Source of the DNA: a virus
DNA: 40,388 nucleotides
Direction: 5' to 3' (one strand)
IMG/VR virus record: IMGVR_UViG_3300040806_002249
Location: 1-40,388 of that record
The position numbers and the translations under genes are program-made. The notes under the pieces are model-generated. The model was not told the DNA's origin, did no database searches, and saw nothing but the letters and a program-made list of their open reading frames with translations. Of this stretch, positions 2,059-19,356 are shown piece after piece. Within the stretch, counting starts at the first letter, position 1. Every line of letters begins with the position of its first letter.

Positions 2059-2086
2059 TTGACGCTAGACAGACCTATGCTATAAT
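2059..2086 (+). promoter_or_regulatory. Sigma70-like promoter with extended -10
   Basis: TTGACG (2059-2064), a 16-nt spacer, then TATAAT (2081-2086) preceded by TGC, which makes an extended -10. It stands 38 nt upstream of the ATG at 2125 and directs the operon that contains the AAA+ ATPase. Confidence 0.75.
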
Positions 2087-2280: not shown

Positions 2281-2299
2281 ATCAAAACGGGAGGTTAAT

Positions 2300-3352
2300 T
2301 TGAAGAAATACATTAAAATAGAAGAAGGGTCCTACAGGAACATAGACCAATCAGGTAGAGTGTTTCCGTTGTTCAAGGACTATCAAAAACACAGCAACCG
2401 AGAAGGTGGCTTCGTCACAGTGACCACAACGGAACTGAACGGCTACGAAGGTTTGGACAAGGTCAGAGTAAATGTACCCAACATCCAATCTATCAAGATA
2501 GTGCCGGAAGGCGAGTATGTGAAGTTCAAAGAAGAACTGAATGATTCGGCTCAGACAGATCCAAAGCCTCAATCAGAAAGTGATGAACAAGCGATCAAAA
2601 GAATTGGAGATCGTTTTGCCATCTTGAATGAGATGACCGAGGCCATAGCACAGAAACAGATCAAAGGTATGATCGTTTCGGGACCTCCGGGCATTGGTAA
2701 GTCTTACGGTGTTGAAACTTCTTTGATGAAGTATTCCACATTCGATGACATAGCAGGAACTAAAAGAAAGTTCGAAGTTGTGAAAGGTGCCATGAGTCCG
2801 ATCGGTCTGTATAAGAAATTATACGAACACGCGGATCCGGGTCATGTGGTATGCTTTGATGACTGTGACGTTATCCTGTACGATGACCTAGCACTTAACC
2901 TGTTGAAGGCCGCACTGGACACAGGAAGAAAGAGAACTCTACAATGGGGGACGGAATCTAGATTCCTACACGCCGAGGGAGTTCCGAACACTTTTGATTT
3001 CAATGCTGGGATCATCTTTATCACGAACGTCAAGTTTGACAACGTCAAGTCTAAGAAGTTGAAAGACCATCTAGAGGCATTGCAGAGCAGATGTCATTAC
3101 TTGGACCTAACGATAGACTCCATGAGAGACAGAATGCTTCGTATCAAACAGATATGTCGAGAAGGTCTATTAGAGAAATACTCGATGTCACAAGAGGTCG
3201 AGGATCAATTGATAGAGTTCATATACGACAATCGTACAAGACTGAGAGAGATATCTTTGAGGATGGTATTGAAGATAGCAGATCTTTGGAAGATGGCTCC
3301 GGACAGGTACCAGCAGTTGGCTGAGCAGACCTGTATGAGAGCGGGGGCATAA
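2300..3352 (+). CDS. AAA+ family ATPase
   Basis: The 350-residue protein has Walker A GPPGIGKS at residues 128-135, Walker B with VVCFDDCD at about 183-190, and a later arginine-containing segment (LQSRCHYLDLTID) that fits sensor or arginine-finger positions. The first 100 residues are a separate, family-specific N-terminal domain. Use of a TTG start is supported by GGGAGG at 2289-2294 with a 6-nt gap; no nearby in-frame ATG fits better. AAA+ ATPases of this type are common in phages and may remodel DNA or protein complexes, but the substrate cannot be read from the sequence. A zinc-ribbon protein gene overlaps its stop. Confidence 0.85.
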   Translation: MKKYIKIEEGSYRNIDQSGRVFPLFKDYQKHSNREGGFVTVTTTELNGYEGLDKVRVNVPNIQSIKIVPEGEYVKFKEELNDSAQTDPKPQSESDEQAIKRIGDRFAILNEMTEAIAQKQIKGMIVSGPPGIGKSYGVETSLMKYSTFDDIAGTKRKFEVVKGAMSPIGLYKKLYEHADPGHVVCFDDCDVILYDDLALNLLKAALDTGRKRTLQWGTESRFLHAEGVPNTFDFNAGIIFITNVKFDNVKSKKLKDHLEALQSRCHYLDLTIDSMRDRMLRIKQICREGLLEKYSMSQEVEDQLIEFIYDNRTRLREISLRMVLKIADLWKMAPDRYQQLAEQTCMRAGA

Positions 3353-3531
3353 TGAGAAACAAGAAACATCAGTGTACGGTGTGTTCCAAATCCTTCGCCC
3401 ACAAGGGCGAGGACACATTGGTGGGAATGTTGGGCATCATACCGGTTCAATTCTGTAAGAAGTGTTATCCAAAAGTGATGGCACAGAAAGAGGAGTTGTA
3501 CCTAAATGATGTTCAACTGAAAGTGGTTTGA
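3352..3531 (+). CDS. Zinc-ribbon protein, 59 aa
   Basis: The ATG shares one base with the ATPase stop (TAATG). The product carries two cysteine pairs, CTVC at residues 8-11 and CKKC at 35-38, which form a typical zinc ribbon, flanked by lysines. It is small and soluble and probably binds nucleic acid or a protein partner. Tight coupling to the AAA+ ATPase suggests a partner or accessory role; this is inference. Its TGA overlaps the ATG of a membrane microprotein. Confidence 0.65.
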   Translation: MRNKKHQCTVCSKSFAHKGEDTLVGMLGIIPVQFCKKCYPKVMAQKEELYLNDVQLKVV

Positions 3532-3632
3532 TGACCAAGACGTCCGTGATAATTGCTCTGTCAGTTTTTGTACTTTACCATTTATTGCCCATGGCAGTCT
3601 GGTTATTGTATTGGATGGCCAACACGGTATGA
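3531..3632 (+). CDS. Membrane microprotein, 33 aa
   Basis: The start overlaps the preceding stop by one base (TGATG). The 33 residues are nearly all hydrophobic (VIIALSVFVLYHLLPMAVWL) and contain one or two short membrane segments. The stop again overlaps the next ATG. The unbroken chain of one-base overlaps, in codon style with the neighbours, argues that it is translated although it is very short. No function is assigned. Confidence 0.5.
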   Translation: MTKTSVIIALSVFVLYHLLPMAVWLLYWMANTV

Positions 3633-3703
3633 TGGATCCGGTATTCGCAGTGATCCTGGTATTGATCTTGTTGCTGGGTCCATATTGGACAAACAGGTTT
3701 TAA
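3632..3703 (+). CDS. Membrane microprotein, 23 aa
   Basis: It starts on the last base of the previous stop (TGATG) and encodes a single hydrophobic helix, DPVFAVILVLILLLGPYW, ending in TNRF. It is the third member of a chain of one-base overlaps that starts with the AAA+ ATPase. Its length alone would not support a call; the coupling and the clean membrane helix do. It is followed by hairpins that probably end the transcript. Confidence 0.42.
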   Translation: MDPVFAVILVLILLLGPYWTNRF

Positions 3704-3705
3704 GG

Positions 3706-3764
3706 CTTCACTATCTTACACCTCCCTGTAAGTGAAGATGGGGTAGATTCTTCGGAGTCTACCC
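3706..3764 (+). terminator. Double hairpin, possible terminator
   Basis: The first hairpin has stem CTTACA/TGTAAG (3715-3720 and 3727-3732) with loop CCTCCC, and an outer CTTCA/TGAAG. The second is a 10-bp stem, GGGTAGATTC/GAGTCTACCC (3741-3750 and 3755-3764), with a TTCG tetraloop. There is no U tract after it, so it may be a stabiliser or processing site rather than an intrinsic terminator. Confidence 0.5.
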
Positions 3765-3809
3765 TCATAAATTGGCTAAAAAGTTCTAATCTATGCGAGT
3801 TTTGGGAGG

Positions 3810-3837
3810 TTGACGCATTGCGGTTCAATGCTATTAT
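3810..3837 (+). promoter_or_regulatory. Sigma70-like promoter with extended -10
   Basis: TTGACG (3810-3815), a 16-nt spacer, then TATTAT (3832-3837) preceded by TGC. It has the same architecture as the promoter at 2059 and lies 24 nt upstream of the ATG at 3862. Confidence 0.7.
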
Positions 3838-3861
3838 GTATTAATAACAAGGGAGGTGCTA

Positions 3862-4089
3862 ATGTCACAGAAAAACGAGAAAGCAAGATACAACTTAACA
3901 GACACATTGACGGTGAGGGAAATGGAACGATTGGAAGACTTGTTCGACAAGATCAAGTTGGACCTATCAGATAACAGTTTTCCAACAAGAACAAACAGAT
4001 TAGAAGCAGTGGAGAACATGAAGAAGGTGTTGGAGATCCACAACTACGAGATATCGGAATACGATCCAGAGAGGGAGATGGCCCAATGA
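3862..4089 (+). CDS. Small helical hypothetical protein, 75 aa
   Basis: GGGAGG at 3851-3856 fixes the ATG at 3862; an in-frame GTG six bases earlier overlaps the Shine-Dalgarno and is rejected. The protein is charged and probably all helical (LTVREMERLEDLFDKIKLDL, later NRLEAVENMKKVLEIHNYEI), with no cysteines or membrane segment. It is the first gene after its own promoter and overlaps the secreted hydrolase gene by four bases (ATGA), so the two are co-expressed. Function unknown. Confidence 0.6.
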   Translation: MSQKNEKARYNLTDTLTVREMERLEDLFDKIKLDLSDNSFPTRTNRLEAVENMKKVLEIHNYEISEYDPEREMAQ

Positions 4090-4976
4090 GACACTTCCTT
4101 GATTTCATAAAATTATCGATAGGATCCGTGGGTGGTGCCATAGCGGTGTTGATGCTATTGGGCGTGGTTTCGTTGCCGGCCAAGGCACATCATGGTTTGG
4201 CGGGTGATTCCATCAGATTCGTGGAGTGTGTGTCCGAGGACTGTAAAGACAAGGGACAGACCGGTCTCTTCACCAAAATGTTAGTGAGTGCCGTTGAGGA
4301 CTCGCCGGCCGTGATCGTTTGGTTGCAGGGTGGCAGGGGTCGTGTCAACTCACTGAACTTTGGTCCCATGGAACACCTTTCCAACATCATTACCACCGTG
4401 GGTGTTGACGTGGGCTATCAGATCATGAACGACAAGAAGATGCCCAACGGTGATTGGGGTGGTCCGGGCAGATGGTCCAAGGACTATGTGGCCAGAGTCA
4501 AGTCAGTGGTGCTATGGGCTCACGAGCAATTTGGAAAACCCGTGTTCATCATGGGTCATTCGGCGGGTGCCCAGGGAGTCTCAGGCTATCTGTTGATGCA
4601 GGAAGAGAACCAAACCTTGGTGTCGGGTGCCATATGGTCCGGGGGCAATCAATCGGCTCCGTATCCGGGCAAACGAGGACTGGAGGTCCAGCAGTTCAAC
4701 ATACCGGCCCTGATCATACACCACGAGAAGGACAGATGTCCCAGCACATCCTACAGGGCGGCCAAGAAAAGATACAAGAAATACACCGACAAAGGCATGA
4801 ACGCCGGACCCACATATTTGGTCAAGATAACCGGCGGTGAGGAAACTTGGAAGGGACCGGGCAAGGATCCCAGAGGTTGCGGAGTACAGGCAGACGCACA
4901 TGGTTTCACTGGAGTCAAGGATGTATTCACACAGGAAGTTCTCAAGTTCATAATCAAGTATGCGGGTCAACAGTAA
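4086..4976 (+). CDS. Secreted alpha/beta hydrolase
   Basis: The first 36 residues form a long signal peptide or membrane anchor with a PAKA-HH cleavage site. The 296-residue protein has a nucleophile elbow GHSAG (Ser159), an Asp in IIHHEKDRCP (Asp216) and a His in DAHGF (His272), spaced as in the alpha/beta-hydrolase catalytic triad. An oxyanion region is plausible at WLQGGRG (about 79-85). It probably acts in the periplasm or outside the cell on an ester or amide; the substrate is unknown. The start overlaps the upstream gene (ATGA). Five cysteines fit an exported protein. G+C is high compared with later genes. An exported esterase in an early-style operon is unusual for a phage. Confidence 0.75.
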   Translation: MRHFLDFIKLSIGSVGGAIAVLMLLGVVSLPAKAHHGLAGDSIRFVECVSEDCKDKGQTGLFTKMLVSAVEDSPAVIVWLQGGRGRVNSLNFGPMEHLSNIITTVGVDVGYQIMNDKKMPNGDWGGPGRWSKDYVARVKSVVLWAHEQFGKPVFIMGHSAGAQGVSGYLLMQEENQTLVSGAIWSGGNQSAPYPGKRGLEVQQFNIPALIIHHEKDRCPSTSYRAAKKRYKKYTDKGMNAGPTYLVKITGGEETWKGPGKDPRGCGVQADAHGFTGVKDVFTQEVLKFIIKYAGQQ

Positions 4977-5054
4977 TAGGCTCGCATATCCACCCAAAAA
5001 ATCCGAACCACAGATATATAGTCTAGGTTCAACAATCCCAACAACAAGGAACAG

Positions 5055-5141
5055 ATGTCGAAGCTCAAGATAGCCATCATATACACCCTACTGATCACTT
5101 ACCTCACGACCATCACGGTTTTGAGTGTGGCCAGTATGTGA
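5055..5141 (+). CDS. Membrane microprotein, 28 aa
   Basis: The ATG is preceded by AAGGA at 5047-5051. The 28 residues are MSKLKIAIIYTLLITYLTTI followed by TVLSVASM, a lysine-flanked single membrane helix. It lies 78 nt downstream of the hydrolase gene. Its size makes the call uncertain; the positively charged N-terminus followed by a clean hydrophobic helix is what one expects of a real small membrane protein. Confidence 0.4.
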   Translation: MSKLKIAIIYTLLITYLTTITVLSVASM

Positions 5142-5466
5142 ATCCGTAGTCCATCCAATCCCTAACCTAGCCACCTCCAGAGCACACAGACATGGTATTA
5201 CCAACCGGAAGCCATAGGCCCTGTCCGCGAAGCGGTGCGCCGCAAAAATTTTACCAAATGCTTGTTTTCATTATATGCCTTACAGGCATATGGCGACAGC
5301 AATTTTTGACACCGAGCCCTACCTTAACCTAGAGTGCCTGCTGATAATCCCAACTGTGATCACTGTGATCTACCCTGACTCCTCTTGGCTGGATCGCCTG
5401 CGAGTTCAGTGTGTGTCCTATAGTTCCAATGGTAGAGCACCGTGGATCGTTTATGGTGGAGGCTGT
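5142..5466. other. Intergenic stretch with GC hairpins and an inverted repeat
   Basis: No convincing gene is seen. At 5224-5243 there are GC-rich self-complementary segments (CCGC-GAA-GCGG, then GCGG-TGCG-CCGC). At 5273-5291 there is a perfect 7-bp inverted repeat, ATATGCC-TTACA-GGCATAT, overlapping a minus-strand TATAAT (5270-5275); it could be an operator. A tRNA-like D-arm and anticodon-arm fold at 5423-5456 lacks a T arm and is not called as a tRNA. Confidence 0.4.
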
Positions 5467-5595
5467 CTAGGCTAGCACGACATGGGCAACGATGATGAGC
5501 AGGGCAACGATGATCAGGCGTATCCTCACACAACCCCAACAGGGATATCCAGTGACCCAGAACAGGAACCATTCCCAATAGTATCTAAACGGCAT
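5467..5595 (-). CDS. Membrane microprotein, 42 aa
   Basis: On the minus strand an ATG at 5595 opens a 42-residue frame. It is aromatic-rich at the start (YYWEWFLFWV), carries a CWGC motif, and ends in a strong membrane helix (RLIIVALLIIVAHVVLA). A minus-strand extended -10 box (TGC-TAAAAT, 5647-5652) lies upstream, giving a leader of about 45 nt. No clear Shine-Dalgarno is visible. It could be a holin-like or other membrane-active peptide, but nothing beyond hydrophobicity supports that. Confidence 0.45.
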   Translation of the reverse strand: MPFRYYWEWFLFWVTGYPCWGCVRIRLIIVALLIIVAHVVLA

Positions 5596-5721
5596 ATGGG
5601 TATGTATGCGGAATCGTGTCGTATGGTGGCTAAAAGCGGTTGCCGTATTTTAGCATAGTACCCCATCCTTAGGATCTTACCAAAAGAAATTGCACCTTCG
5701 CTGTCCTAATCTGGGTCGCAA

Positions 5722-5735
5722 ACGCCTAAAGGCGT
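5722..5735 (-). terminator. Short hairpin downstream of 5851-6125 genes
   Basis: ACGCC-TAAA-GGCGT forms a compact stem about 115 nt beyond the end of the minus-strand pair at 5851-6125. It has no clear U tract, so this is a weak terminator candidate. A direct repeat GGGCCACCG (5761-5769 and 5773-5781) lies beside it. The rest of 5596-5850 shows no gene. Confidence 0.25.
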
Positions 5736-5850
5736 GTTGGGGTTGATCTGGCCGGGGTGAGGGCCACCGATTGGGCCACCGTATGCAAAGGTAGGGAGCG
5801 GTACTGATCTGCTAACCGTATGCCTTAGGGTCGGCGGGGGGTGTGTTGTG

Positions 5851-5925
5851 TTATCTATTGAGTGACCAGGCCATGTAGGCATAGGCCATCACTGCCAGCG
5901 TTATTGTCACTAGGTCCCAGATCAT
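5851..5925 (-). CDS. Membrane microprotein, 24 aa
   Basis: The ATG overlaps the stop of the upstream 67-residue gene (ATGA), so it would be translated by coupling. The product is MIWDLVTITLAVMAYAYMAW plus SLNR, a single membrane helix. The ATGA junction and the clean helix are the evidence; length alone would not suffice. Confidence 0.42.
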   Translation of the reverse strand: MIWDLVTITLAVMAYAYMAWSLNR

Positions 5926-6125
5926 ATGCTGTCGTCCTGTATACAGTAGTAGCCGCTGTCCGCTATCATGAATCCGTTGTCCTGTAGCGTCTGGGTCATT
6001 TGTTGGTACTTGATCTCCGCACGATCCAGGCACTGATCCTGTGTGACATAGGTGCGATGTGTGTCTTCCACGAATTGCACACAGGGGTTGCCCAGGGTAC
6101 AGATCACCAATACTATCTTGAACAT
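5922..6125 (-). CDS. Small cysteine-containing protein, 67 aa
   Basis: The chosen start gives MFKIVLVICTLGNPC, a hydrophobic N-terminus followed by a small domain with four cysteines and the helical segment TQDQCLDRAEIKYQQMTQTL. I recognise the general pattern (short hydrophobic leader, about 65 residues, conserved cysteines) from small uncharacterised marine-phage proteins, but cannot name a family. The frame is open upstream to 6542, but that part is compositionally unlike protein and has a poor start, so I reject it. It is followed by a coupled membrane microprotein. Probably an envelope or exported protein. Confidence 0.5.
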   Translation of the reverse strand: MFKIVLVICTLGNPCVQFVEDTHRTYVTQDQCLDRAEIKYQQMTQTLQDNGFMIADSGYYCIQDDSI

Positions 6126-6450
6126 ATATGGGTACTTATCCGCGGCCGGATATAGTGTGGTAAAGGTGAACTGACCCAGCCGGCGGCCATGCAATAACCA
6201 CAGGCCCGTACGGAGGGGTTGGTAAATCTCCATGCGATAACCACATGCCTGACCCTGGGGCCTCGTTCCACTCGGCCTCCACCTTACCACACGATGTTCG
6301 GCCATGGGATCCGGGCACAGGATTTGGTGGGTTGGTAGACCATTTTCTCCAAGTGTTCGCACGGTGAGCGAACTTGGTAATGGCACATCTACGGAGAGAT
6401 CAACCCGTGCTGTTGAGCTCACTGAGCACAGCGTCATAACTATGTGTATC
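6126..6450. other. Intergenic stretch, nothing recognised
   Basis: Neither strand shows a convincing gene start, Shine-Dalgarno or strong promoter. A weak plus-strand promoter-like pair (TTGAGC at 6413-6418, CATAAC at 6435-6440, 16-nt spacer) lies just before the microprotein at 6451. The stretch also separates divergently oriented small genes. Confidence 0.35.
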
Positions 6451-6549
6451 ATGCACCCACGACTCTGGCTATCGGCAATCTCTATCGCACTGGCAGTGAT
6501 GCTGTTCAGTTGGGCCATGGCCGAGTTCATTGACTGGATCATGATCTAG
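6451..6549 (+). CDS. Membrane microprotein, 32 aa
   Basis: The product, MHPRLWLSAISIALAVMLFS plus WAMAEFIDWIMI, is a single membrane helix with a short basic N-terminus and acidic C-terminus. An in-frame ATG at 6442 would add three residues. A weak sigma70-like promoter is centred near 6427, which would make the mRNA nearly leaderless. It is immediately followed by a tandem repeat. Confidence is limited by the size. Confidence 0.38.
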   Translation: MHPRLWLSAISIALAVMLFSWAMAEFIDWIMI

Positions 6550-6550
6550 C

Positions 6551-6595
6551 ACAGCACACATCCACACAGCACAGCACACATCCACACAGCACAGC
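6551..6595 (+). repeat. Tandem direct repeat, 20-bp unit, 2.25 copies
   Basis: The unit ACAGCACACATCCACACAGC occurs at 6551-6570 and again, without change, at 6571-6590, followed by ACAGC. It is purely C/A-rich on the plus strand. It lies directly after a microprotein gene, in a gene-poor stretch (6550-6845) that otherwise holds only the promoter at 6813. Confidence 0.85.
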
Positions 6596-6812
6596 GGCAT
6601 GGTCGCACAGTCCAGATCTGGCACACCACGGGCACGGTGGCCGGCATGGCAAAGAAAAAAAAGATTTGGCCATGGTGGTCGCATAGCATTTTTATTTTGG
6701 TAATAAATTTGGCAATTTGTAAGCCCCATGGCCTAAAAAGGACCGGGGTGGTGCTAAAATACCCCCATATTAAAAAAAATGCACAGCGTATTTTTTACCC
6801 TGCATACCCAGG

Positions 6813-6840
6813 TCGACACATCGTGTAACTGTGCTATAAT
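6813..6840 (+). promoter_or_regulatory. Sigma70-like promoter with extended -10
   Basis: TCGACA (6813-6818), 16-nt spacer, TATAAT (6835-6840) preceded by TGC. The next gene's ATG is at 6846, only 5 nt past the -10 box, so the transcript would start at or inside the start codon and be essentially leaderless. Confidence 0.65.
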
Positions 6841-6845
6841 GAGCT

Positions 6846-7127
6846 ATGTCACCTTTGAAGTGGATACTGTTGACGGCATTTGTCGTGAGTGCATACTGGT
6901 TCTGGGCCTTGTATGTGATCATAGCCATCATGGTGTTGGGTGCATACTTGGACACGGGCAACAGCAGTCGATCCACACCCAGCAAACGCAGGCCATATCG
7001 ATTCAAAACAGCCAAACGCACAGTGCCAAGACCACCCAGATACAGGCCAGCCAAACCCCATAGATTCCCCAAGACACGACGCAAATGGGGTCGACCAGTC
7101 AAGATAGACAAGATGTGGAAGTTGTGA
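6846..7127 (+). CDS. Small membrane protein with basic tail, 93 aa
   Basis: The ATG at 6846 falls immediately after the promoter at 6813-6840. The first 35 residues are hydrophobic (PLKWILLTAFVVSAYWFWAL then YVIIAIMVLGAYL), giving one long or two short membrane helices. The remaining 55 residues are extremely basic and proline-rich (KRRPYRFKTAKRTVPRPPRY), suggesting a tail that binds nucleic acid or phospholipid head groups. No Shine-Dalgarno is visible, in line with a leaderless message. It overlaps the next gene by four bases (GTGA). No family is recognised. Confidence 0.55.
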   Translation: MSPLKWILLTAFVVSAYWFWALYVIIAIMVLGAYLDTGNSSRSTPSKRRPYRFKTAKRTVPRPPRYRPAKPHRFPKTRRKWGRPVKIDKMWKL

Positions 7128-7294
7128 AGTACTACTACGTCATGTGCCAGAGAGGCAAGTTGATACATTGTTGCTATGTGCAGTTGGATCGGGAATCCGC
7201 TGACGTACTGCATGACTCACTGGAACAGCGATATGATCTGGTACAGGTGTGTGATGTGCCCGCGAGTGAAGTGGACAGGCGATTGCTGTTGTAA
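7124..7294 (+). CDS. Hypothetical protein, 56 aa, GTG start
   Basis: A GTG at 7124 overlaps the stop of the upstream gene (GTGA), so it is probably translated by coupling. An in-frame ATG at 7085 lies deep in the upstream gene and is less likely. The product begins KYYYVMCQRGKLIHCCYVQL and has a small strand/helix pattern with three cysteines and an acidic second half. It is soluble-looking. No function is assigned. Confidence 0.45.
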   Translation: MKYYYVMCQRGKLIHCCYVQLDRESADVLHDSLEQRYDLVQVCDVPASEVDRRLLL

Positions 7295-7377
7295 AAACTG
7301 CCTCCACCCGGTGTTCCTCAGATCAAAAAAATTTGCACAGCAGAAAAAAAAAGGTCTAGCATTACCATTGGGGGCCG

Positions 7378-7386
7378 TGTTACAAT
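7378..7386 (+). promoter_or_regulatory. Extended -10 promoter of the tRNA-like RNA
   Basis: TGT-TACAAT matches the extended -10 form seen at 17465-17473. No good -35 is seen. A start 7 nt downstream would fall on 7393, the first base of the tRNA-like element. Confidence 0.45.
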
Positions 7387-7392
7387 GCGTGT

Positions 7393-7489
7393 GCGGTCAT
7401 GGTGAAATCAGGAGTATCCAGACACATCCGGTGTTTTGACGCTGGAGCTCGAGAGGGCACTACAGGTTCGAGTCCTGTTGACCGTACCA
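7393..7489 (+). ncRNA. tRNA-like RNA, 97 nt, non-canonical
   Basis: The acceptor stem GCGGTCA (7393-7399) pairs with TGACCGT (7479-7485), followed by A and an encoded CCA. The T arm is perfect: ACAGG, loop TTCGAGT, CCTGT (7462-7478). A possible long variable arm GCTC-GAGA-GGGC (7447-7458) suggests a class II (Leu/Ser) ancestor. The middle is abnormal: either a D stem GTG/CAC closes an 18-nt loop, or an anticodon stem TCCAG/CTGGA closes a 20-nt loop. The element is about 10-13 nt longer than expected and no anticodon can be assigned safely. It could be a degenerate tRNA or a tRNA mimic. Confidence 0.5.
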
Positions 7490-7548
7490 AAGGGACTGTG
7501 GGATCCGCCCGGTTTCGTCCACAGCGGAGCCGGGTCAAAAAAGCACCC

Positions 7549-7556
7549 TATAAATA
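7549..7556 (+). promoter_or_regulatory. T4-type late promoter TATAAATA
   Basis: This is an exact TATAAATA octamer, the T4 late promoter consensus, with 5 nt to the ATG at 7562. If T4 spacing applies, transcription would start at the A of the start codon. Confidence 0.65.
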
Positions 7557-7561
7557 TCAGC

Positions 7562-8251
7562 ATGACAGTGGATTTCCGAGTACTGCACGATGTGGTCAGC
7601 ACAGCAGAGCTGGAGCAGATCTGTGCGGAAATGGATCAGTGCCTGGAGCGTGAAACCCTGCCCGACACGGGACGCACGGCGGAGGCCAGGAGATTCAGGA
7701 TCAATGCCCAACAGCACCTCTATCCCATCACACAGCAGTTCGCGATGCGTGTCATGGAGGACCTGCCCGACGAGATGCTCACATTCATGGCCTTCGTGGA
7801 ACAGCACCGGTCAAATGACCTGCACACCGACCACCACCCTAATCAGGGTCGTGGACACAGCATACTGTTGCCGTTGCGTCACGTCACTCCCGGCGTGGAT
7901 CGCACAGTGGTGTTTGATCACAGCACCATCACTGACCTACGACAGGAACAGATCGATGCACACCAGGCCCAACAACGCATAATACACAGTGCGAGCACAT
8001 GGCCCCCTAGGGGTGATCACCAACGACGCTATCAACTGGAACACTGTGATTCAGTGGTGGATCACATGACAGTGGCCGGTGTGTTCGAGTACAGGTTGGG
8101 AGATGCTGTGTGTTTTGATGCACACGCCATACACGCTGGATCTGATTGGCAGAGGCACTCACCGGAACGCCAACACAAGGACTATCTGCTGATACACACC
8201 ACCATCAAACAAGGACCCTTCGCCCGACAGTTCCGCAACGAGTCCTACTGA
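7562..8251 (+). CDS. 2-oxoglutarate/Fe(II) oxygenase-like protein
   Basis: The 229-residue protein has an H-x-D motif in NDLHTDHHP (His88, Asp90), followed by strand-like GRGHSILLPL and RTVVFDH, and a candidate distal iron ligand in CFDAHAIHAGSDW (His188 or His191). The 2OG-binding basic residue may be Lys206 (HKDYLLIHTT), where Arg is usual. This order fits the double-stranded beta-helix oxygenases that use Fe(II) and 2-oxoglutarate; the substrate is unknown. The start is set by the late promoter at 7549-7556; the frame is open further upstream through the tRNA-like element, which I reject. The end overlaps a convergent gene by 7 bases. Confidence 0.6.
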   Translation: MTVDFRVLHDVVSTAELEQICAEMDQCLERETLPDTGRTAEARRFRINAQQHLYPITQQFAMRVMEDLPDEMLTFMAFVEQHRSNDLHTDHHPNQGRGHSILLPLRHVTPGVDRTVVFDHSTITDLRQEQIDAHQAQQRIIHSASTWPPRGDHQRRYQLEHCDSVVDHMTVAGVFEYRLGDAVCFDAHAIHAGSDWQRHSPERQHKDYLLIHTTIKQGPFARQFRNESY

Positions 8252-8499
8252 TCAACACCAAACCAGTGGCGTTGATTGATCAGGCCGTCGTACACCCTTC
8301 TCTGTGATTGTCGATAACTGCAACCGTTCCACCAGTCCTGGCTGGCTATGTCCATGCGGCACAGTTCGCACTCGCCTATGACCCACGTGGGATCGTACCA
8401 CAGGGGTTTGCCCGGTCCCGGTGTGAGGCAGTGAGTGTGATACCACACCGGTTTGCGTGTCATGAGGTATATGGTCTTCCTCTGCTCTATGGTGTACAT
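8245..8499 (-). CDS. Small protein with CxxC, 84 aa
   Basis: The chosen start gives MYTIEQRKTIYLMTRKPVWY. The middle has CELC (residues 48-51) and other aromatic and cysteine residues (WWNGCSYR), suggesting a small metal-binding or redox fold. A longer version with 23 more residues is open upstream but overlaps the late promoter and start of the divergent gene at 8569. The 3' end overlaps the oxygenase-like gene at 7562-8251 by 7 bases. No family is recognised. Confidence 0.5.
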   Translation of the reverse strand: MYTIEQRKTIYLMTRKPVWYHTHCLTPGPGKPLWYDPTWVIGECELCRMDIASQDWWNGCSYRQSQRRVYDGLINQRHWFGVDQ

Positions 8500-8553
8500 A
8501 CAAAAATACTTAATATCGCGTGTGTCACCATAATATGCTGTTTGATTCATGAC

Positions 8554-8561
8554 AATAAATA
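8554..8561 (+). promoter_or_regulatory. Late-type promoter AATAAATA
   Basis: This octamer has one mismatch to TATAAATA and lies 7 nt before the ATG at 8569. The following bases (TCAGC) are the same as after the exact octamer at 7549, which supports a shared promoter design. Confidence 0.55.
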
Positions 8562-8568
8562 TCAGCAC

Positions 8569-9204
8569 ATGATGAAAGTCATATCAGATCATTCTCCCTA
8601 TTACACCACGATCACCTGGCCCGAATTGCCCAAAATAATATCTTGGCTACAGGCGCACGTCAATGACGACAGGGTTTGTCAACCACACCCGTTCCCGACA
8701 GCCCGGAAGCACACTCGCAAAAGCATAGATCTGTCAGAGATATATCATTGCCTGCCCGGCCTGGACAGCATATCGTGGAGCAGAAACGGAAGTGTTCTGA
8801 TATCACAGCCCGGAGATTATTCCTCACTGCACAGAGACAAGACCGACGGTCCGGAGGCCGATGACCTGGTGGGATTGAATTTCCCCATAAAGGTGCTGGA
8901 CCGATGTTGCAACACCTACTGGGTGGATGATGATGTGTTGAAGAATGATCCACGGATAGTGTATGACAATGTACACAACGTGGACGATGAATGGTGGGCC
9001 ATGCAAGGTCAACACCAGACACCTCGGGCCTGTACCACTGTGCTACAGAACGACCAGGCAATGTTGATAAACACCGGCGAGTGGCATTACTGGGGGAACA
9101 CCTCTACCACACACGAGAGGATAATCATGAGTTTGCGATTACAAAACAAAATGAAAAAAGATCATGACTTCCAACAAATACATGATCTGTTGATCAATCA
9201 GTGA
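8569..9204 (+). CDS. 2-oxoglutarate/Fe(II) oxygenase-like protein
   Basis: The 211-residue protein has an H-x-D motif in SSLHRDKTDG (His88, Asp90), a strand VGLNFPIKV, and a distal histidine in NTGEWHYWGN (His173) followed by an arginine in THERIIMSLR (Arg184), where the 2OG carboxylate is normally bound. These features fit the Fe(II)/2OG dioxygenase fold better than those of its neighbour at 7562. The start is taken at the first of two ATGs right after the late-type box; the frame is open to 8308 but the upstream part is antisense to the small gene at 8245-8499. Likely a soluble oxygenase of unknown substrate. Confidence 0.65.
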   Translation: MMKVISDHSPYYTTITWPELPKIISWLQAHVNDDRVCQPHPFPTARKHTRKSIDLSEIYHCLPGLDSISWSRNGSVLISQPGDYSSLHRDKTDGPEADDLVGLNFPIKVLDRCCNTYWVDDDVLKNDPRIVYDNVHNVDDEWWAMQGQHQTPRACTTVLQNDQAMLINTGEWHYWGNTSTTHERIIMSLRLQNKMKKDHDFQQIHDLLINQ

Positions 9205-9212
9205 TAGATCTA

Positions 9213-9986
9213 TCACACTGCTATTTTTGAATAAGGTATATCGGTCAACAGCATACAACCAGGTTGGTGTGTGATCGCTATCTCCACATCCGGCGATGTG
9301 GTCAATATGCTCTGTGGCGTCACACCACAGGCCCAGAACACAGGCAGATGTCCCTGCACAACTTTGGGCACATCTCCGTAATCGGGTTTGGTTAGGTCTC
9401 GTATTCCTATCTGTGTGGGATCTCCGATGTGTACAGGAGTTCCATGTGCCAGTGGATACCTTGACGATATCGCTATGGATTCTATGGCATGGTCCGCACG
9501 GAACTGTCTCATGCTCACCACCAGTCGTCCTCGAAATTTGCCCACGGACTCGCATTCGTTCCAGGTGCGGTACATGGCCACCATCGAACCATCATTGAGA
9601 TGAGGCAACGGCAGTCCTGCATCCAAGAACAGTTGATCAAAACTGAAACTGCATCCGAGAACAAAGGCCACCATGTCGTTGGTCCAGTATGACGAAATGT
9701 CGGAAACTATGTCCACTAATTTACCTTTACGCCACACGCGATATCTGGGAAGATCGGTACATATGTTGATATCCCCCAATGACTTCAACACTGGATCTCC
9801 GGGATCTCCCTGTGCCAACACCGGACACGGTTTTGGATTCAATCTGCAGAACTCTGCGAAATCCTCGGCATCCGACTTGTCCACTATGCACAAGTTACCT
9901 TGAACATAGTCTCTACACCATCCACTGGTATATCCGGTGTATTCCCCGGCACGTATCAGTTGTCTGGCTTCTTTGATGTTTTGCAT
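9213..9986 (-). CDS. DUF1445 / D-glutamate-cyclase-like protein (YcsI family)
   Basis: The 257 residues match the DUF1445 (PF07286) pattern end to end: GWCRDYVQGNLCIVDKSDA, NPKPCPVLAQGDPGDP, TDLPRYRVWRKGKLV, VAFVLGCSFSFDQLFLDAGL, MYRTWNECES, RGRLVVSMRQFRA, GTPVHIGDPTQIGIRDL, PVFWACGVTPQ and a final ITHQPGCMLLTD. The length is close to the family norm of about 260. The eukaryotic relative DGLUCY converts D-glutamate to 5-oxoproline; bacterial YcsI members often sit beside 5-oxoprolinase genes. The phage role is unknown, and no oxoprolinase gene is nearby. It has its own late promoter, on the strand opposite to its oxygenase neighbours. Confidence 0.88.
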   Translation of the reverse strand: MQNIKEARQLIRAGEYTGYTSGWCRDYVQGNLCIVDKSDAEDFAEFCRLNPKPCPVLAQGDPGDPVLKSLGDINICTDLPRYRVWRKGKLVDIVSDISSYWTNDMVAFVLGCSFSFDQLFLDAGLPLPHLNDGSMVAMYRTWNECESVGKFRGRLVVSMRQFRADHAIESIAISSRYPLAHGTPVHIGDPTQIGIRDLTKPDYGDVPKVVQGHLPVFWACGVTPQSILTTSPDVEIAITHQPGCMLLTDIPYSKIAV

Positions 9987-10816: not shown

Positions 10817-12040
10817 ATGAAACATCATCCACAGGCACACATACAAGGAATACGTTCATCACGGATGGTCGACAACCACTGGATACCCTATCCCAGTGCA
10901 AAAACCGATTTGAAAAATAACGGAACCTATGCAAACAAGTTTGCCGAAGTTTGGAGACGAACTCCAAAAATATTGATCGGAGTACAAGATCTGCGAGCTC
11001 GCAGAGGCACGTTCAACACGCCATGGAACGCACCCAGCAATCCACTGTATGCCATGCCCGAATTGAAATTCATCAACGACACGCTGTCAGATCTAATAGA
11101 CGAGAGAGCCACGGAGTTGTACAACGAGGCCAAGAACTCCAACAAGAAACTGGCAGTGATGTGGAGTGGTGGAATTGATTCCACAGCAGTGCTGACATCG
11201 TTGTTGAAAAACATACCCAACAACGAACACGACATGATAGAGGTCATCATGACAACTTCCTCGATATATGAGAATGTTGAATATTGGAAAAAATACATCA
11301 ATGGAAAGATCAAACAATCTTTTTATCTTGATATAAGTTTGAACACATACTTTCTTGACAAATACATTTTACTACACGGTGACCCGGGTGACTGCTTGTT
11401 TGGTCCCAGTATGCCCATGTATAAAGATTATTTTCTCAAAGGTCTGCACAAACAACCGCATAGCATACACAAAATAAAAATTAAAAACTATTTGACAGAC
11501 GATCTAGCAGTAGATTTCAATCAATGGTACTATGACAAAATAAGTCAAAGCATAGGCGAGATTGATCAGCAAGATTATGTATCAACTGTTGCAGATTTCT
11601 GGTGGTGGACCTATTTCAATTTCAAGTGGGAATTCAGTTGCCAACGTCCATTCTTTTATATGAGAGTTACCAGCGACAAAGACGGAATGCCCTTGTACAA
11701 GAAACCAATATCATACGAGCATCAACAACAGTTTGCAAAAAATACTTTTTTCAACACAGACAAGTTCCAGCAGTGGTCCTACACCAATTTAAAAAGATTA
11801 ATTCCTGACGATGACCAGTCACAACACAAAATAGATGTAAAAAGATATGTGTATGAGTTTGATCACAACGAAATTTATTTTGTTGAAAAACCAAAAGTGG
11901 GAGTCAAAAATCCCATACAACACATAGATATCGATAGACCAGTTTATTATGACAACAACTGGATAGGTTATAGTGGAAACGAAGACAACAGCACGGTTGA
12001 TAAAAGTATGAGATATCTCATAGAAAGGTACGAGGGTTAG
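10817..12040 (+). CDS. Asparagine-synthase-like PP-loop protein, copy 1
   Basis: The 407-residue protein contains the PP-loop SGGIDST at residues 117-123, the signature of N-type ATP pyrophosphatases that adenylate a substrate. A second motif, LHGDPGDCLFGPS (about 190-202), corresponds to the GE-G-DELFGGY region of asparagine synthase. The N-terminal glutaminase domain of AsnB is absent; about 100 family-specific residues replace it. The C-terminal part contains a conserved segment NTFFNTDKFQQWSYTNLKRL. The product is a probable ATP-dependent amide- or ligase-type enzyme; its acceptor is unknown. It shares blocks of identical DNA with copies 2 and 3. It has a late-type promoter and no Shine-Dalgarno. 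Confidence 0.75.
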   Translation: MKHHPQAHIQGIRSSRMVDNHWIPYPSAKTDLKNNGTYANKFAEVWRRTPKILIGVQDLRARRGTFNTPWNAPSNPLYAMPELKFINDTLSDLIDERATELYNEAKNSNKKLAVMWSGGIDSTAVLTSLLKNIPNNEHDMIEVIMTTSSIYENVEYWKKYINGKIKQSFYLDISLNTYFLDKYILLHGDPGDCLFGPSMPMYKDYFLKGLHKQPHSIHKIKIKNYLTDDLAVDFNQWYYDKISQSIGEIDQQDYVSTVADFWWWTYFNFKWEFSCQRPFFYMRVTSDKDGMPLYKKPISYEHQQQFAKNTFFNTDKFQQWSYTNLKRLIPDDDQSQHKIDVKRYVYEFDHNEIYFVEKPKVGVKNPIQHIDIDRPVYYDNNWIGYSGNEDNSTVDKSMRYLIERYEG

Positions 12041-12055
12041 CAACACATTAAAAAT

Positions 12056-13318
12056 ATGGAAAACTATCACAGCAAAAAATATCCAGTTGATCATGTGAAA
12101 AAAATTAAATCATCTCGAATGGTCGATAACTGGGAGGTCCAACAATATCTAAATCAAATAAAAAAAAACAAGTTTGCCGTTGCTTGGGTTCTTATTCCGA
12201 GGATATTGCTAGGAATTCATGACACTCGTCCTCGCAGAGGCACGTTCAACACGCCATGGAACGCACCCAGCAATCCACTGTATGCCATGCCCGAATTGAA
12301 ATTCATCAACGACAAAATGAGTGACTTGCTGGACGAGAGGGCCACGGAGTTGTACAACGAGGCCAAGAACTCCAACAAGAAACTGGCAGTGATGTGGAGT
12401 GGTGGAATTGATTCCACTGCGGTATTGGTTTCGTTGTTGAAAAACATACCCAACAACGAACACGACATGATAGAGGTCATCATGACAACTTCCTCGATAT
12501 ATGAGAATGTTAATTTTTATTTTAAACACATCAGTAACAAGTTAAAACAAAAAAATTACATAGACATAAAACTAGATGTTGATTTCCTAGATCAGTACAT
12601 TCTATTACACGGAGACCCAGCCGACTGCTTGTTTGGTCCCAATATGCCGTCGAGCAATAATCAAACTGTTAAAAATTATGAGTCATCGGGCATCCATTTA
12701 AAATCACACAGCATACATAAAATAAACATCAAACACCCTTTGCTGTCAACATATCAATTAGGTTTTGATTTCAATCAATGGTACTATGACAAGATAAATC
12801 AAACAATACAACAGGCTGGACAATCTGATTATGTATCAACTGTTGCAGATTTCTGGTGGTGGCAATACTTTAACTTCAAGTGGGAATTCAGTTGCCAACG
12901 TCCATTCTTTTATATGAGATCTTTACAGCAAGATAGCAAAAGAATGCCCATGTACAAGAAATCGATACCATACGGACATCAAGAGCAATTTGCCAAGAAC
13001 ACATTCTTCAACACAGACAAGTTCCAGCAGTGGTCCTACACCAATTTAAAAAATTTGATACCTAAAGATGTATCACAACACAAAATAGATTTAAAAAAAT
13101 ATGTGTACGAGTTTGATCACAATGAAATTTACTTCAGTACAAAAACAAAAGTAGGAACCAAAACTCCGGTAAATGTTTTGAGAACTGTGAATGTGAATAG
13201 TAACGGCACGACAAATCCTTTTTATTATGACGACGAGTGGGTAGGACACGCCTGGAATGAAAACGATCATAGGGTCGCTAAAACTTCCAGATTGCTTCTG
13301 GATCGCTACACAGGGTAA
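12056..13318 (+). CDS. Asparagine-synthase-like PP-loop protein, copy 2
   Basis: The 420-residue paralogue of copy 1 has the PP-loop SGGIDST at 115-121 and LHGDPADCLFGPN later. It shares 84 identical nucleotides with copy 1 (12231-12314 versus 10998-11081) and a 55-nt identical block with copy 3 (12587-12641 versus 14717-14771), while the stretches between are AT-rich and diverged. It follows copy 1 by 15 nt with no clear promoter of its own (TTAAAAA at 12048 is a poor match), so it is probably read from the copy 1 promoter. All residues needed for ATP pyrophosphatase chemistry appear intact. Confidence 0.75.
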   Translation: MENYHSKKYPVDHVKKIKSSRMVDNWEVQQYLNQIKKNKFAVAWVLIPRILLGIHDTRPRRGTFNTPWNAPSNPLYAMPELKFINDKMSDLLDERATELYNEAKNSNKKLAVMWSGGIDSTAVLVSLLKNIPNNEHDMIEVIMTTSSIYENVNFYFKHISNKLKQKNYIDIKLDVDFLDQYILLHGDPADCLFGPNMPSSNNQTVKNYESSGIHLKSHSIHKINIKHPLLSTYQLGFDFNQWYYDKINQTIQQAGQSDYVSTVADFWWWQYFNFKWEFSCQRPFFYMRSLQQDSKRMPMYKKSIPYGHQEQFAKNTFFNTDKFQQWSYTNLKNLIPKDVSQHKIDLKKYVYEFDHNEIYFSTKTKVGTKTPVNVLRTVNVNSNGTTNPFYYDDEWVGHAWNENDHRVAKTSRLLLDRYTG

Positions 13319-13329
13319 TAATTAACATT

Positions 13330-14178
13330 ATGTCAAACGAGTTATATGGATTAATAGACCCGGCCGCTAATAAATTTGTCGTGGTGTCAACAAATTTTTC
13401 TGCTATTAAACAAGTACAATTTGTCATAATGCAAAAATATTTCTATCCGGTATTAAACATAACCCAAACAATAGATTACCAAAAAAAATATAATACTGAG
13501 TATAGAGATATAATATTAGATAACATAGACAATACCAATTGTGTAAAATATGGTGCCAACACTACCATGATTCAAAGTCTAGAGCAAACAGTGTCACTGC
13601 ATAATGCCAAAGAATCCGGTATCATGATTTCACCAACTGACATAGATATTTCCTATAAATTGAAAGACGTATTAGAAATAATATTAGAAATTTTTGAAAT
13701 TGTTCAAATACAGTTAGATTCAATAAAAAATTTTAAAATAGATTCAACTAGAGATAAAGATAATGGAATAAAAGAATTTTTTAATTTTTTAAAACTATTA
13801 GTGGACACACCAGATCATAGTGAGGAATTAAAAAAAATATTTGAACAAGAGCTAAATTTAAACGATAGACATAGTGCAGATTTACACGAATACCAAAAAT
13901 ATGTTACAAAATCATTAATCGACTCTTTTAATAAAATAGACATATCAAACAATGACTTTGTTCTAGACTTTATTAACGACATGATAGATAAAACATCAAA
14001 AACAAAAAACACAACGAGTCCGCGTTATCGATATTTTTTATTAGAAGACGGATTTGACAATTTGAGTTCTTTTCAAAAAAATCCAAATCTATATAAAGAC
14101 TTAATCCAAGAGCACAGCATGATAGAACATATAAGATTTTTTTTGAGCAAGAAATTAAATGAAATTACAGATCGTTAA
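13330..14178 (+). CDS. Unknown helical protein inside the PP-loop array, 282 aa
   Basis: No family is recognised. The protein is rich in I, K, N and D, mostly helical by eye (LEIILEIFEIVQIQLDSIKN), with no membrane segment, cysteine pair or catalytic motif. It is in the same direction as the PP-loop copies, begins 11 nt after copy 2 and overlaps copy 3 by 20 nt, so it is probably co-translated with them. It may be a partner or a substrate-carrying protein of these enzymes, which is inference from position. Its codon use is more AT-rich than the conserved blocks in its neighbours. Confidence 0.6.
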   Translation: MSNELYGLIDPAANKFVVVSTNFSAIKQVQFVIMQKYFYPVLNITQTIDYQKKYNTEYRDIILDNIDNTNCVKYGANTTMIQSLEQTVSLHNAKESGIMISPTDIDISYKLKDVLEIILEIFEIVQIQLDSIKNFKIDSTRDKDNGIKEFFNFLKLLVDTPDHSEELKKIFEQELNLNDRHSADLHEYQKYVTKSLIDSFNKIDISNNDFVLDFINDMIDKTSKTKNTTSPRYRYFLLEDGFDNLSSFQKNPNLYKDLIQEHSMIEHIRFFLSKKLNEITDR

Positions 14179-15424
14179 GTTCCAAAATTCTCCATTACCC
14201 AAATCTGTCAAAGACAAATTTGCAAAATCTAATACAGTATCAAATTTTTTAAGCATGGGATATGATCTTCCTTTGAGTAGGTCTGTGTATCCAGAAAATC
14301 CTTATAGTATGTACTGGGGTCAGATTTATAAATTAATGCAAGGTATTTCAGACTGGCGAGCCCGATCGGGTACTTTTAATAATCCATGGAACGCACCCAG
14401 CAATCCACTGTATGCCATGCCCGAATTGAAATTCATCGATGATAAATTAGAGGACATTTACGATTCACGAGCCATGGAGTTGTACAACGAGGCCAAGAAC
14501 TCCAACAAGAAACTGGCAGTGATGTGGAGTGGTGGAATTGATTCCACATCAGTATTGGTTTCGTTGTTGAAAAACATACCCAACAACGAACACGACATGA
14601 TAGAGGTCATTTGTAATACCGATTCTATTTTTGAACATCCAGAATTTTTTATGAAATTTATTTACAGAAAACTAGCAATTCGAAGTTCTGTTTTCTTTTT
14701 AGTCACAAACGAGTTTCTAGATCAGTACATTCTATTACACGGAGACCCAGCCGACTGCTTGTTTGGTCCCAGCATAAGCAGAATGAAAATGGCTATACGT
14801 CAAGGAGTTCACCACGAATCCTGGCAAAAAAATATGGATCTAATAAAAAAACCATTGATACAAATTCTAGAAAACAAAACCAATTTTTATAAAATAAGTT
14901 TGCCAGAAAACTATCTTTCTGACAAGCATATCTCGGAGTTTTCAAAAAACTGCGTTGATTGGTTTTGTGAAAAACTCTCGAATAATATTATTGAAAACAA
15001 ACACAATGATTATCTCACTAGTATAGCAGATTGGTATTGGTGGACATATTTCAATTTCAAATGGGAGTTCAGTTGCCAACGACCGTTTTTATACAATAAC
15101 AGCGGAGAACATATATCTTTTGAAAAACAAAAATTTTTCTCTAAAAATACTTTTTTCAACACAGACAAGTTCCAGCAGTGGTCCTATACTAATTTAAAGT
15201 CACTTATTCCAACAGCAGACATGACCAAACACAAATCTTTGGTTAAAAAATATATTTTCGACTATTCTAAGATGACCGAGTATTACAAGTATAAAAATAA
15301 GATTGCTGGACAACAACCGGCATTAAAAATAACACAACCGGACCTCTTATTTGATCAATATTGGCAACCAAATCATGATGTTGATAATTTTTATGATAAA
15401 ATGCTGAGCGAGTACAAAGGATAG
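14159..15424 (+). CDS. Asparagine-synthase-like PP-loop protein, copy 3
   Basis: The 421-residue paralogue has SGGIDST at 124-130 and LHGDPADCLFGPS later. It is the most diverged of the three at both ends, yet it keeps three-way identical DNA blocks at 14384-14437, 14476-14547 and 14561-14610. The start lies 20 nt inside the preceding gene. It carries an insertion of about 15 residues relative to copies 1 and 2 after the second motif, and a different N-terminus (MKLQIVKFQNSPLPKSVKDK), which points to altered specificity. The ATP-binding residues are intact. Confidence 0.73.
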   Translation: MKLQIVKFQNSPLPKSVKDKFAKSNTVSNFLSMGYDLPLSRSVYPENPYSMYWGQIYKLMQGISDWRARSGTFNNPWNAPSNPLYAMPELKFIDDKLEDIYDSRAMELYNEAKNSNKKLAVMWSGGIDSTSVLVSLLKNIPNNEHDMIEVICNTDSIFEHPEFFMKFIYRKLAIRSSVFFLVTNEFLDQYILLHGDPADCLFGPSISRMKMAIRQGVHHESWQKNMDLIKKPLIQILENKTNFYKISLPENYLSDKHISEFSKNCVDWFCEKLSNNIIENKHNDYLTSIADWYWWTYFNFKWEFSCQRPFLYNNSGEHISFEKQKFFSKNTFFNTDKFQQWSYTNLKSLIPTADMTKHKSLVKKYIFDYSKMTEYYKYKNKIAGQQPALKITQPDLLFDQYWQPNHDVDNFYDKMLSEYKG

Positions 15425-15552: not shown

Positions 15553-16023
15553 ATGACAAAAACAACTAAAATCAGATGGGTTATTGCACACGAGCCTTTA
15601 TCTTTATTCGTAAGAGCGGCTAAAGATTTCCAAGATTTCGTGAACAGAGCTCAGACTGCAGAAAAAATCGAAGTTGAAATCATGACATTAAGAGAGTACA
15701 GTGACAAATACAACAACGGTGTATTAGTTACTAAACACGACTTATTAGACTTGATGGAACAAGGTAAAATTGAAATGTCTCAAATGTACACTACATGGTT
15801 AGCAGAGCATTATGAACAAGATATGTTAGCATTAGAAATGCCTTTCATATTTGCAGATCATGATCATGCAACTAGAGTGTTAGAAGGTGAAGTAGGTGAA
15901 GAGTTATTAAACAAAATCACTGACAAATCTAACGTAAGAGGTATGGCATTTACTTACTCGGGTGGTTTCAGAAACGTAGTTTCTAACAAAAAAGTTAGCA
16001 AACTAGGTGACTTAACTGCGTAA
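15553..16023 (+). CDS. TRAP transporter solute-binding protein (DctP-like), N-terminal half
   Basis: The 156 residues match the first half of DctP-type binding proteins: IRWVIAHEPLSLFVRAAKDF, then LMEQGKIEMSQMYTTWLAEH, LALEMPFIFADHDHATRVLE and RGMAFTYSGGFRNVVSNKK, ending at DLTA, where family members continue with G-x-K-x-R. The frame is stopped by TAATAA and reopens at once with ATG at 16027 in the same frame, coding the second half. There is no signal peptide, so the product would stay in the cytoplasm, unlike true DctP. Codons are strongly A/T-ending and uniform (TTA, GTA, AAA), suggesting high expression. It could be one chain of a two-chain protein or a decayed gene. Confidence 0.75.
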   Translation: MTKTTKIRWVIAHEPLSLFVRAAKDFQDFVNRAQTAEKIEVEIMTLREYSDKYNNGVLVTKHDLLDLMEQGKIEMSQMYTTWLAEHYEQDMLALEMPFIFADHDHATRVLEGEVGEELLNKITDKSNVRGMAFTYSGGFRNVVSNKKVSKLGDLTA

Positions 16024-16026
16024 TAA

Positions 16027-16515
16027 ATGAAACTTAGAACTAACAGAAATCCAGTTGCACAAGAAACCTTCAAAGCACTAGGTGTCGAAGACAGACACAT
16101 CTGTGAAATTGAAGATCTTAAAGGTGCGATCGAAGACGGAAAATGTGAGGGTGGCGAAGGAGTTTACTCGAGAGTATATCCCCTGGACCAGAACGAAGTG
16201 ACCAAATCGGTCATTGACACCAAACACAGTTTATTCTTAACAACCATGATCATGCGTAATGATTTCTATGAGAAATTATCTCCAGAAGTCAAGGCTGTTT
16301 TAAAAGCGGCCGCAATTGATGCCGGAAGAAAAGAACGTGAAACAACAATCGCTGATGGAGAGGAAGCCAAGGCTAGATTGAAATCAGAAGGTGTTAACGT
16401 TCACGAGCTTACCCCGGAAGAAACAGCAGAGTTCAAGGAAAAGACTAAAACGGTTTACGAAAAGTTCGAACCAACATTTTCACCTGGCCTAATTGACAGG
16501 ATCAAGAAAGCCTAG
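16027..16515 (+). CDS. TRAP solute-binding protein (DctP-like), C-terminal half
   Basis: The 162 residues continue the DctP fold from the hinge: KLRTNRNPVAQETFKALGVE with the Arg that usually binds the ligand carboxylate, then GGEGVYSRVYPLDQNEVTKS, FLTTMIMRNDFYEKLSPEVK and a helical end AEFKEKTKTVYEKFEPTF. It begins three bases after the second of two in-frame TAA stops that end the first half. No Shine-Dalgarno of its own is visible, so it would depend on termination-reinitiation or readthrough. Codon use is less A/T-biased than in the first half. It is followed by a strong terminator. Confidence 0.72.
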   Translation: MKLRTNRNPVAQETFKALGVEDRHICEIEDLKGAIEDGKCEGGEGVYSRVYPLDQNEVTKSVIDTKHSLFLTTMIMRNDFYEKLSPEVKAVLKAAAIDAGRKERETTIADGEEAKARLKSEGVNVHELTPEETAEFKEKTKTVYEKFEPTFSPGLIDRIKKA

Positions 16516-17420: not shown

Positions 17421-17429
17421 TAGTAGTTA

Positions 17430-17436
17430 TATTTAA
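17430..17436 (-). promoter_or_regulatory. Late-type promoter TTAAATA (minus)
   Basis: TTAAATA lies 9 nt before the ATG of the BKACE gene, about 10 bp from the divergent -35 box of clpP. Confidence 0.5.
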
Positions 17437-17444
17437 GTTGTGTG

Positions 17445-17473
17445 TTGACAGGTGAGAAAAAAAATGTTACAAT
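17445..17473 (+). promoter_or_regulatory. Sigma70 promoter of clpP
   Basis: TTGACA (17445-17450), a 17-nt spacer, then TACAAT (17468-17473) with TG at the extended -10 position. The ATG at 17483 lies 9 nt past the -10, so the leader would be only about 2-4 nt. Confidence 0.75.
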
Positions 17474-17482
17474 TAGAGTATT

Positions 17483-18088: not shown

Positions 18089-18100
18089 AAATTTTGATTT

Positions 18101-19342: not shown

Positions 19343-19349
19343 AGGAAAG

Positions 19350-19356
19350 TATTTAC
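19350..19356 (-). promoter_or_regulatory. Late-type promoter GTAAATA (minus)
   Basis: GTAAATA on the minus strand lies 7 nt before the ATG at 19342. It overlaps the start region of the divergent lipoprotein gene. Confidence 0.4.

Follow-up and report, generated by a model that had tools for sequence, protein, structure and literature searches.

The window, by which we mean the whole stretch of 40,388 bases of viral DNA that was analysed, carries T4-like replication genes; a search with its first 9 kb turned up no closely related cultured phage. On the plus strand an AAA ATPase gene with a TTG start (2300-3352) leads a chain of short genes. Its product belongs to the NrdC.10 family (phrog_1250, E=3e-81) by a profile match over residues 48-347, which is most of the protein, and the homologue in phage VR5 (VR5_091) is annotated as T4 NrdC.10-like. 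T4 NrdC.10 itself falls in the same sequence family and is known only as an AAA motif (PMC1524935). The predicted fold is AAA-like, a fold search returned generic AAA relatives only, and a sequence search of the PDB with this gene gave none. NrdC.10-type AAA genes match more than 1,200 sequenced phage records. The gene is preceded by the Shine-Dalgarno (SD) sequence GGGAGGT (2289-2295, plus strand) and, further upstream, by a predicted promoter-like site, TTGACG-N16-TATAAT with TG before the second hexamer (2059-2086, plus strand; 11/12 matches in a consensus scan). Such promoter-like sites with an extended -10 recur ahead of genes (2059, 3810 and 6813). A scan for T4-type late promoters (TATAAATA) gave a frequency about equal to that in shuffled sequence, with one exact match upstream of 7562.

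Behind the ATPase gene the reading frames are linked by overlapping stop and start codons. A 59-aa protein with two C-x2-C pairs (3352-3531) begins in a TAATG overlap and is followed by two microproteins that each begin in a TGATG overlap: one of 33 aa with a single membrane helix and no SD (3531-3632), and one of 23 aa without a clear SD (3632-3703; 24 aa if read from the ATG at 3629), which closes the chain. Two hairpins come directly after. The first (3712-3735, outer stem approximately 3706-3737) begins eight bases past the last microgene and carries the loop CCUCCC (3721-3726), and the second (3741-3764) folds as a strong terminator-like hairpin with a UUCG loop; all of these features lie on the plus strand. 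The next unit, on the same strand, starts with a 75-aa protein (3862-4089) whose gene shares an ATGA overlap with that of an exported alpha/beta-hydrolase-like protein (4086-4976, GHSAG; weak Pfam match at E=0.002, below cut-off).

For comparison we collected 17 related viral loci through homology to the ATPase gene (2300-3352). The closest relative, L002, has an ATPase gene that is approximately 97% identical, and most of the region can be aligned to the window. The 59-aa protein has homologues in L002 (90%) and L008 (67%, elsewhere in that locus), the 75-aa protein in L002, L005, L006 and L007, and the hydrolase-like protein has a close relative in L002 only. In the slot of 3531, homologues are found in L002 (82%), L005 and L006; in the latter two the ATPase is followed by a 36-aa helix protein, and 0 and 1 of 3000 shuffles, respectively, score as high. 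Against L002, six amino acids of 3531 are replaced, all conservatively, and one further change is silent, with frame, overlap and hydrophobicity kept, a pair that alone does not establish selection on the exact sequence, and 3632 shows a pN/pS of 0.12. Judged by these comparisons, which establish the order of the chain (ATPase, two-CxxC protein, 3531, 3632) and the conservation of both microgenes, 3531 and 3632 close an operon whose lead gene is a T4 NrdC.10 homologue.

An earlier note on this DNA had described six short hydrophobic frames in this region (3531, 3632, 5055, 5467 minus, 5851 minus and 6451). All six were found in the window at these coordinates, and the sequence does contain the overlaps claimed for three of them (TGATG at 3531 and 3632, ATGA at 5922-5925). 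Between 3531 and 6549 hydrophobic microORFs are also more numerous than expected: we counted 7 frames that start with ATG, are 20-45 aa long and include a strongly hydrophobic stretch, whereas 100 dinucleotide shuffles gave 0.5 on average and never more than 3. Such shuffles do not model frames lying opposite coding sequence; the observed count takes in the minus-strand frames at 4967 and 3791 and excludes 5851, whose helix is weaker.

Outcomes differ between the frames when they are held against L002, the kind of check that the note had proposed. Frame, overlaps and hydrophobicity are kept for 3531 and 3632, and the reading of the overlaps as a sign of coupled translation is backed for these two by their conservation in relatives. 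The 28-aa membrane microORF at 5055-5141 (plus strand) has an AAGGA SD, and its L002 copy keeps the ATG, SD and stop and carries an in-frame deletion of 3 bases. The 42-aa frame at 5467-5595 (minus strand) is the same in L002, where the surrounding DNA is equally similar; 3 nonsynonymous and 2 synonymous changes are too few to judge. Also on the minus strand, the 24-aa frame at 5851-5925 keeps its frame and its ATGA overlap with the 67-aa gene at 5922-6125 (pN/pS 0.68 on few changes). A longer frame with a GTG start contains it at its 3' end, and in L013 the homologue of the gene upstream of it precedes a different gene; no further relatives of that upstream gene were found. The 32-aa frame at 6451-6549 (plus strand) is nested in longer frames and not conserved, being absent from L002, where the segment has diverged with indels; by the refuting condition set in the note itself, this frame fails. 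On this comparison 3531 and 3632 are well supported, 5055 is plausible and 5851 possible. That the region encodes membrane microproteins below the usual limits of gene finders is supported for 3531 and 3632, with the other four unproven. Small phage genes overlooked by gene finders are likewise the subject of the catalogue of Fremin et al. 2022, as far as it is described where cited in PMC11323111.

The note had read all six frames as a single envelope module acting in superinfection exclusion or host-channel control. They fall, however, in at least three units, namely the ATPase operon, the stretch after the hydrolase gene and the minus-strand genes, and the six frames are not one module. T4 Imm is an example of a short phage membrane protein with a function in superinfection exclusion, and single-helix proteins coupled to an apparently early-type operon would suit an exclusion or host-channel role. 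Nonetheless, none of the six frames was matched to a known function in the PHROGs search, no PADLOC defence match was obtained for the neighbours tested, and the strongest neighbour link is with an NrdC.10-type AAA ATPase and not with exclusion genes. Given also the scatter of the frames across several units, we regard such a module as unlikely. Coding density is low between 5000 and 6800, and G+C content is approximately 50% at 4000-9500 against 30-45% elsewhere in the window.

Microproteins behind the ATPase recur among the relatives, whose operons we read by following chained starts after the ATPase stop codon. Three helix microproteins are chained to the ATPase in L008 and two in L017, a 198-aa protein and two microproteins follow it in L007, and L003 has one microprotein of 21 aa in its chain. 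In L010 and L011 several microproteins surround a membrane-anchored glucosaminidase (PF01832). Overall, a chained one-helix microprotein lies within the first three genes after the ATPase in 10 of the 13 marine loci, compared with 20 of 109 other genes that served as controls (Fisher p=4e-5; 8/11 and p=4e-4 after collapsing near-duplicates). Another conserved membrane microORF, of 22 aa (MFNLAFWLTVIAVSIYLGIYVW), occurs in L012 (1401-1469), L017 (2732-2803), L003 and L013.

The glucosaminidase has endolysin matches and sits between microproteins, and one 40-aa neighbour in the L010 and L011 chains is weakly holin-like (E=0.19). It might be argued, then, that the slot after the ATPase is a lysis cassette, with the microproteins as holins, antiholins or endolysin regulators. 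An endolysin is found only in these two close lineages, though, and in no chain of the other relatives or the window, which makes a lysis cassette improbable.

The last gene of the chain encodes 24-26 aa in five marine lineages (e.g. MGIEIIVFATVFTLIVLLTGGPGNTL). Changes in the 26-aa family fall almost only at third codon positions among three of these lineages (3, 0 and 19; 3, 0 and 13; 4, 0 and 14 at the three positions), which is strong evidence of coding and indicates that the family is under strong purifying selection at the amino-acid level. In other viruses, largely of a freshwater type (a label inferred from the sequence groups and not from a record field), peptides of 27-37 aa with G[HYEQN]P sit behind NrdC.10 genes. 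A pattern scan for this G-x-P family, which was defined in this analysis, was made independently of the ATPase gene and found 62 viral contigs, 49 of them distinct; the same scan of genome_contigs gave none. An ATPase gene ends shortly before the microprotein in 27-28 of the 49 distinct contigs, with a gap mostly within 20 nt or of a few hundred, and it directly precedes the microprotein in most contigs with enough upstream sequence. Some G-x-P microproteins occur away from the ATPase, which weakens the case for an obligate partnership. For one member of the larger family, a single-sequence fold gave one continuous helix. In seven contigs (L305, L306, L301, L262, L077, L285 and L318) an SPFH/Band_7 membrane protein gene (PF01145), of lipoprotein type, is found near the G-x-P microprotein.

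The microprotein at 3632 occupies the same position at the end of an ATPase operon. Compared to its own shuffles, 134 of 20000 score as high under the marine model and 21 of 20000 under the AWL model, i.e. modest ranks of 0.001-0.007. Since its helix is followed by G-P without the middle residue of the motif, we call it a relative and not a member: it is probably a diverged relative of the G-x-P family. A search with the pattern GGPGNTL returned only three contigs that were already known. Peptide searches of cultured phages gave no match, where the low-complexity filter of BLAST may have masked the peptides.

The two hairpins lie directly behind the last gene of the chain in every marine locus examined. 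In ten aligned sequences the A-CCUCCC-U core of the first hairpin is identical, whereas 6 of 7 stem pairs show compensatory changes on both sides; the alignment was anchored on CCTCCC, so that the loop identity is partly due to selection of the sequences, which does not apply to the stem. Stem pairing reaches 94%, against 61% in shuffled and at most 47% in slid alignments. With a covariance model of the hairpin, a single strong copy was detected in each of 12 loci (203 kb searched), L012 having a shortened variant. The second hairpin is similar in the relatives, several of which show a U-run. Among 4227 Rfam models run on window positions 3300-7600 only a tRNA reached the cut-off, and none of the models covers the hairpin. 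Comparison thus establishes a conserved, covarying structured element at the 3' end, as expected of an autoregulatory RNA that pairs its 3' UTR with an SD.

In 11 of the 12 marine loci the last stop codon precedes the loop core by 10-20 nt; in L013, where the ATPase itself is the last gene, the distance is 26 nt. Such spacing would suit a terminal microORF that matters by its translation, in that the stopping ribosome unfolds or covers the hairpin and tunes its formation. Against this, the amino-acid-level selection on the 26-aa family argues that the product matters too, and we give an effect of translation in place of the product only a small chance.

The loop is complementary to SD sequences. 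In the window, positions 3720-3726 match the SD of the ATPase gene over 7 nt, but the SDs at 164 and 2125 match equally and that of gene 3862 (3851-3858, plus strand) matches best, with 9 nt and -17.7 kcal/mol, so the target in the window may be broader. In wider NrdC.10 loci analogous hairpins carry loops such as GUUGGCUCC, UCUAGCUCCU, UUAGCUCCU and UUCGCUCC, each complementary to the SD region of the ATPase gene in the same locus. The loop changes together with the SD between operons, GGAGCCAAC occurring with GUUGGCUCC and AGGAGCUAGA with UCUAGCUCCU.

An SD-loop match of at least 9 nt is present in 77 of 187 loci, whereas about 60% of them show no long match. When the downstream DNA is shuffled the rate is 2.8%, and an upstream stretch used as a control matches in 4 of 182 loci (approximately 2%). 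Start-codon choice in these scans favoured good SDs, which may favour GGAG but not the bases after it. Swapping loci alone yields 15% long matches because relatives share loops, and the joint variation of SD extension and loop is therefore more telling: across types the observed value is 115 against 84, the best of 2000 permutations, although the 187 loci are related and permutation values are not true probabilities. Covarying complementarity to the own SD is thus established by comparison across NrdC.10 loci, with 7 nt in the window itself. In the T4-like phages VR5 and KARL-1, the two examined, no SD-matching hairpin was seen, in which they differ from the window.

Position at the operon end, beside a strong second hairpin, would also be expected if the first hairpin were an ordinary terminator or processing stem with an incidental C-rich loop. 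A variable stem around an unchanging loop, a second hairpin that already looks like the terminator, and loops that shift with the SD from one phage group to the next all speak against it, and we hold this to be quite improbable. A more general trans-acting anti-SD RNA, directed at many phage or host messages and not at its own operon, deserves more weight: GGGAGG is common to the SDs of several genes in the marine clade, and the best match in the window is that of gene 3862. Yet extended SDs such as GGAGCTAG are almost only found at the ATPase gene; outside the marine clade, the freshwater groups included, hardly any other gene shares the extended match. A general role is accordingly possible but doubtful.

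Known systems offer parallels for autoregulation. The icaR message of Staphylococcus aureus has a C-rich 3' UTR motif that pairs with its own SD (PMC3868564). The phage motif is likewise set against an SD of the same message; icaR pairing has been demonstrated by experiment and is followed by RNase III cleavage, whereas the phage case is inferred and its motif, unlike that of icaR, lies in the loop of a covarying hairpin directly before a terminator-like one. OppZ and CarZ of Vibrio cholerae are sRNAs derived from 3' UTRs that pair with their own operon and inhibit its translation (PMC7398697). Here too an RNA from the 3' end would be aimed at its own operon, in the phage on the grounds of sequence comparison and with no sequence relation claimed. 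The rhizobial sRNAs SmelA075 and SmelA099 have CCUCCUCCC anti-SD loops (PMC3927594) in hairpins that are similarly variable in the stem and invariant in the loop. They differ in having three or four hairpins and being trans-encoded, as opposed to one loop at the operon end that tracks the SD of one gene.

Autoregulation by base pairing from the 3' end, in the manner of icaR or OppZ, is what the comparison suggests. We consider it somewhat better than an even chance that the locus is one ATPase operon with coupled membrane microproteins, whose 3' hairpin pairs with the ATPase SD to control its own expression. The NrdC.10-like ATPase would be translated from its own SD, and stop-start coupling would carry ribosomes into the two-CxxC protein and then into the single-helix inner-membrane microproteins 3531 and 3632. 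At the end of the transcript the first hairpin would offer its CCUCCC loop to SDs, above all that of the ATPase gene, with the second hairpin acting as terminator. As transcript accumulates, the loop would pair with the ATPase SD, in cis or as an sRNA cut from the 3' end, and shut off the ATPase and, through coupling, the microproteins. Both the coupled translation and the repression are drawn from sequence comparison. Were this confirmed, control of microgenes that have no ribosome sites would be accounted for by the hairpin, and phages would provide a case of 5'-3' base-pairing feedback whose loop and SD can be traced co-evolving over many lineages.

The host inner membrane is the most likely location of the microproteins, which would act together with the ATPase. 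That they are a membrane adaptor for it is the weakest step, taken from linkage alone, and we put it forward tentatively, at rather less than an even chance; a lysis or exclusion role is possible. A wider reading covers NrdC.10 operons of T4-like marine viruses and of very large freshwater phages: a widespread phage riboregulator in the form of a 3'-terminal hairpin whose loop co-evolves with the SD of its own ATPase gene, with translation-coupled membrane microproteins immediately upstream that are partners of the ATPase and gate the hairpin. This we think conceivable, though on the unlikely side. For the role of NrdC.10-type ATPases, the microprotein neighbour and the self-matching 3' hairpin provide two direct handles.

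Other parts of the window were noted in passing. Frames at 6637-6828 and in L008, L012, L013 and L017 share a KYPHIKKNAQ similarity, which seems to point to a conserved noncoding DNA element and not to a protein. Three related proteins of 407-421 aa that share MWSGGIDST are encoded at 10817-15424, the second and third being separated by a protein of 282 aa; NCBIfam gave no match for the first of the three. A DctP-type TRAP solute-binding gene (15553-16515) consists of two adjacent frames with a stop between them, and genes of metabolic or cellular type follow at 16569-20944 (3-keto-5-aminohexanoate cleavage enzyme-like, ClpP-like and FTR1 iron permease). Finally, the virus encodes a Gram-negative outer-membrane porin on the minus strand (27356-28330; Porin_4, E=1e-19), to which a protein of L003 is similar at its N-terminus.
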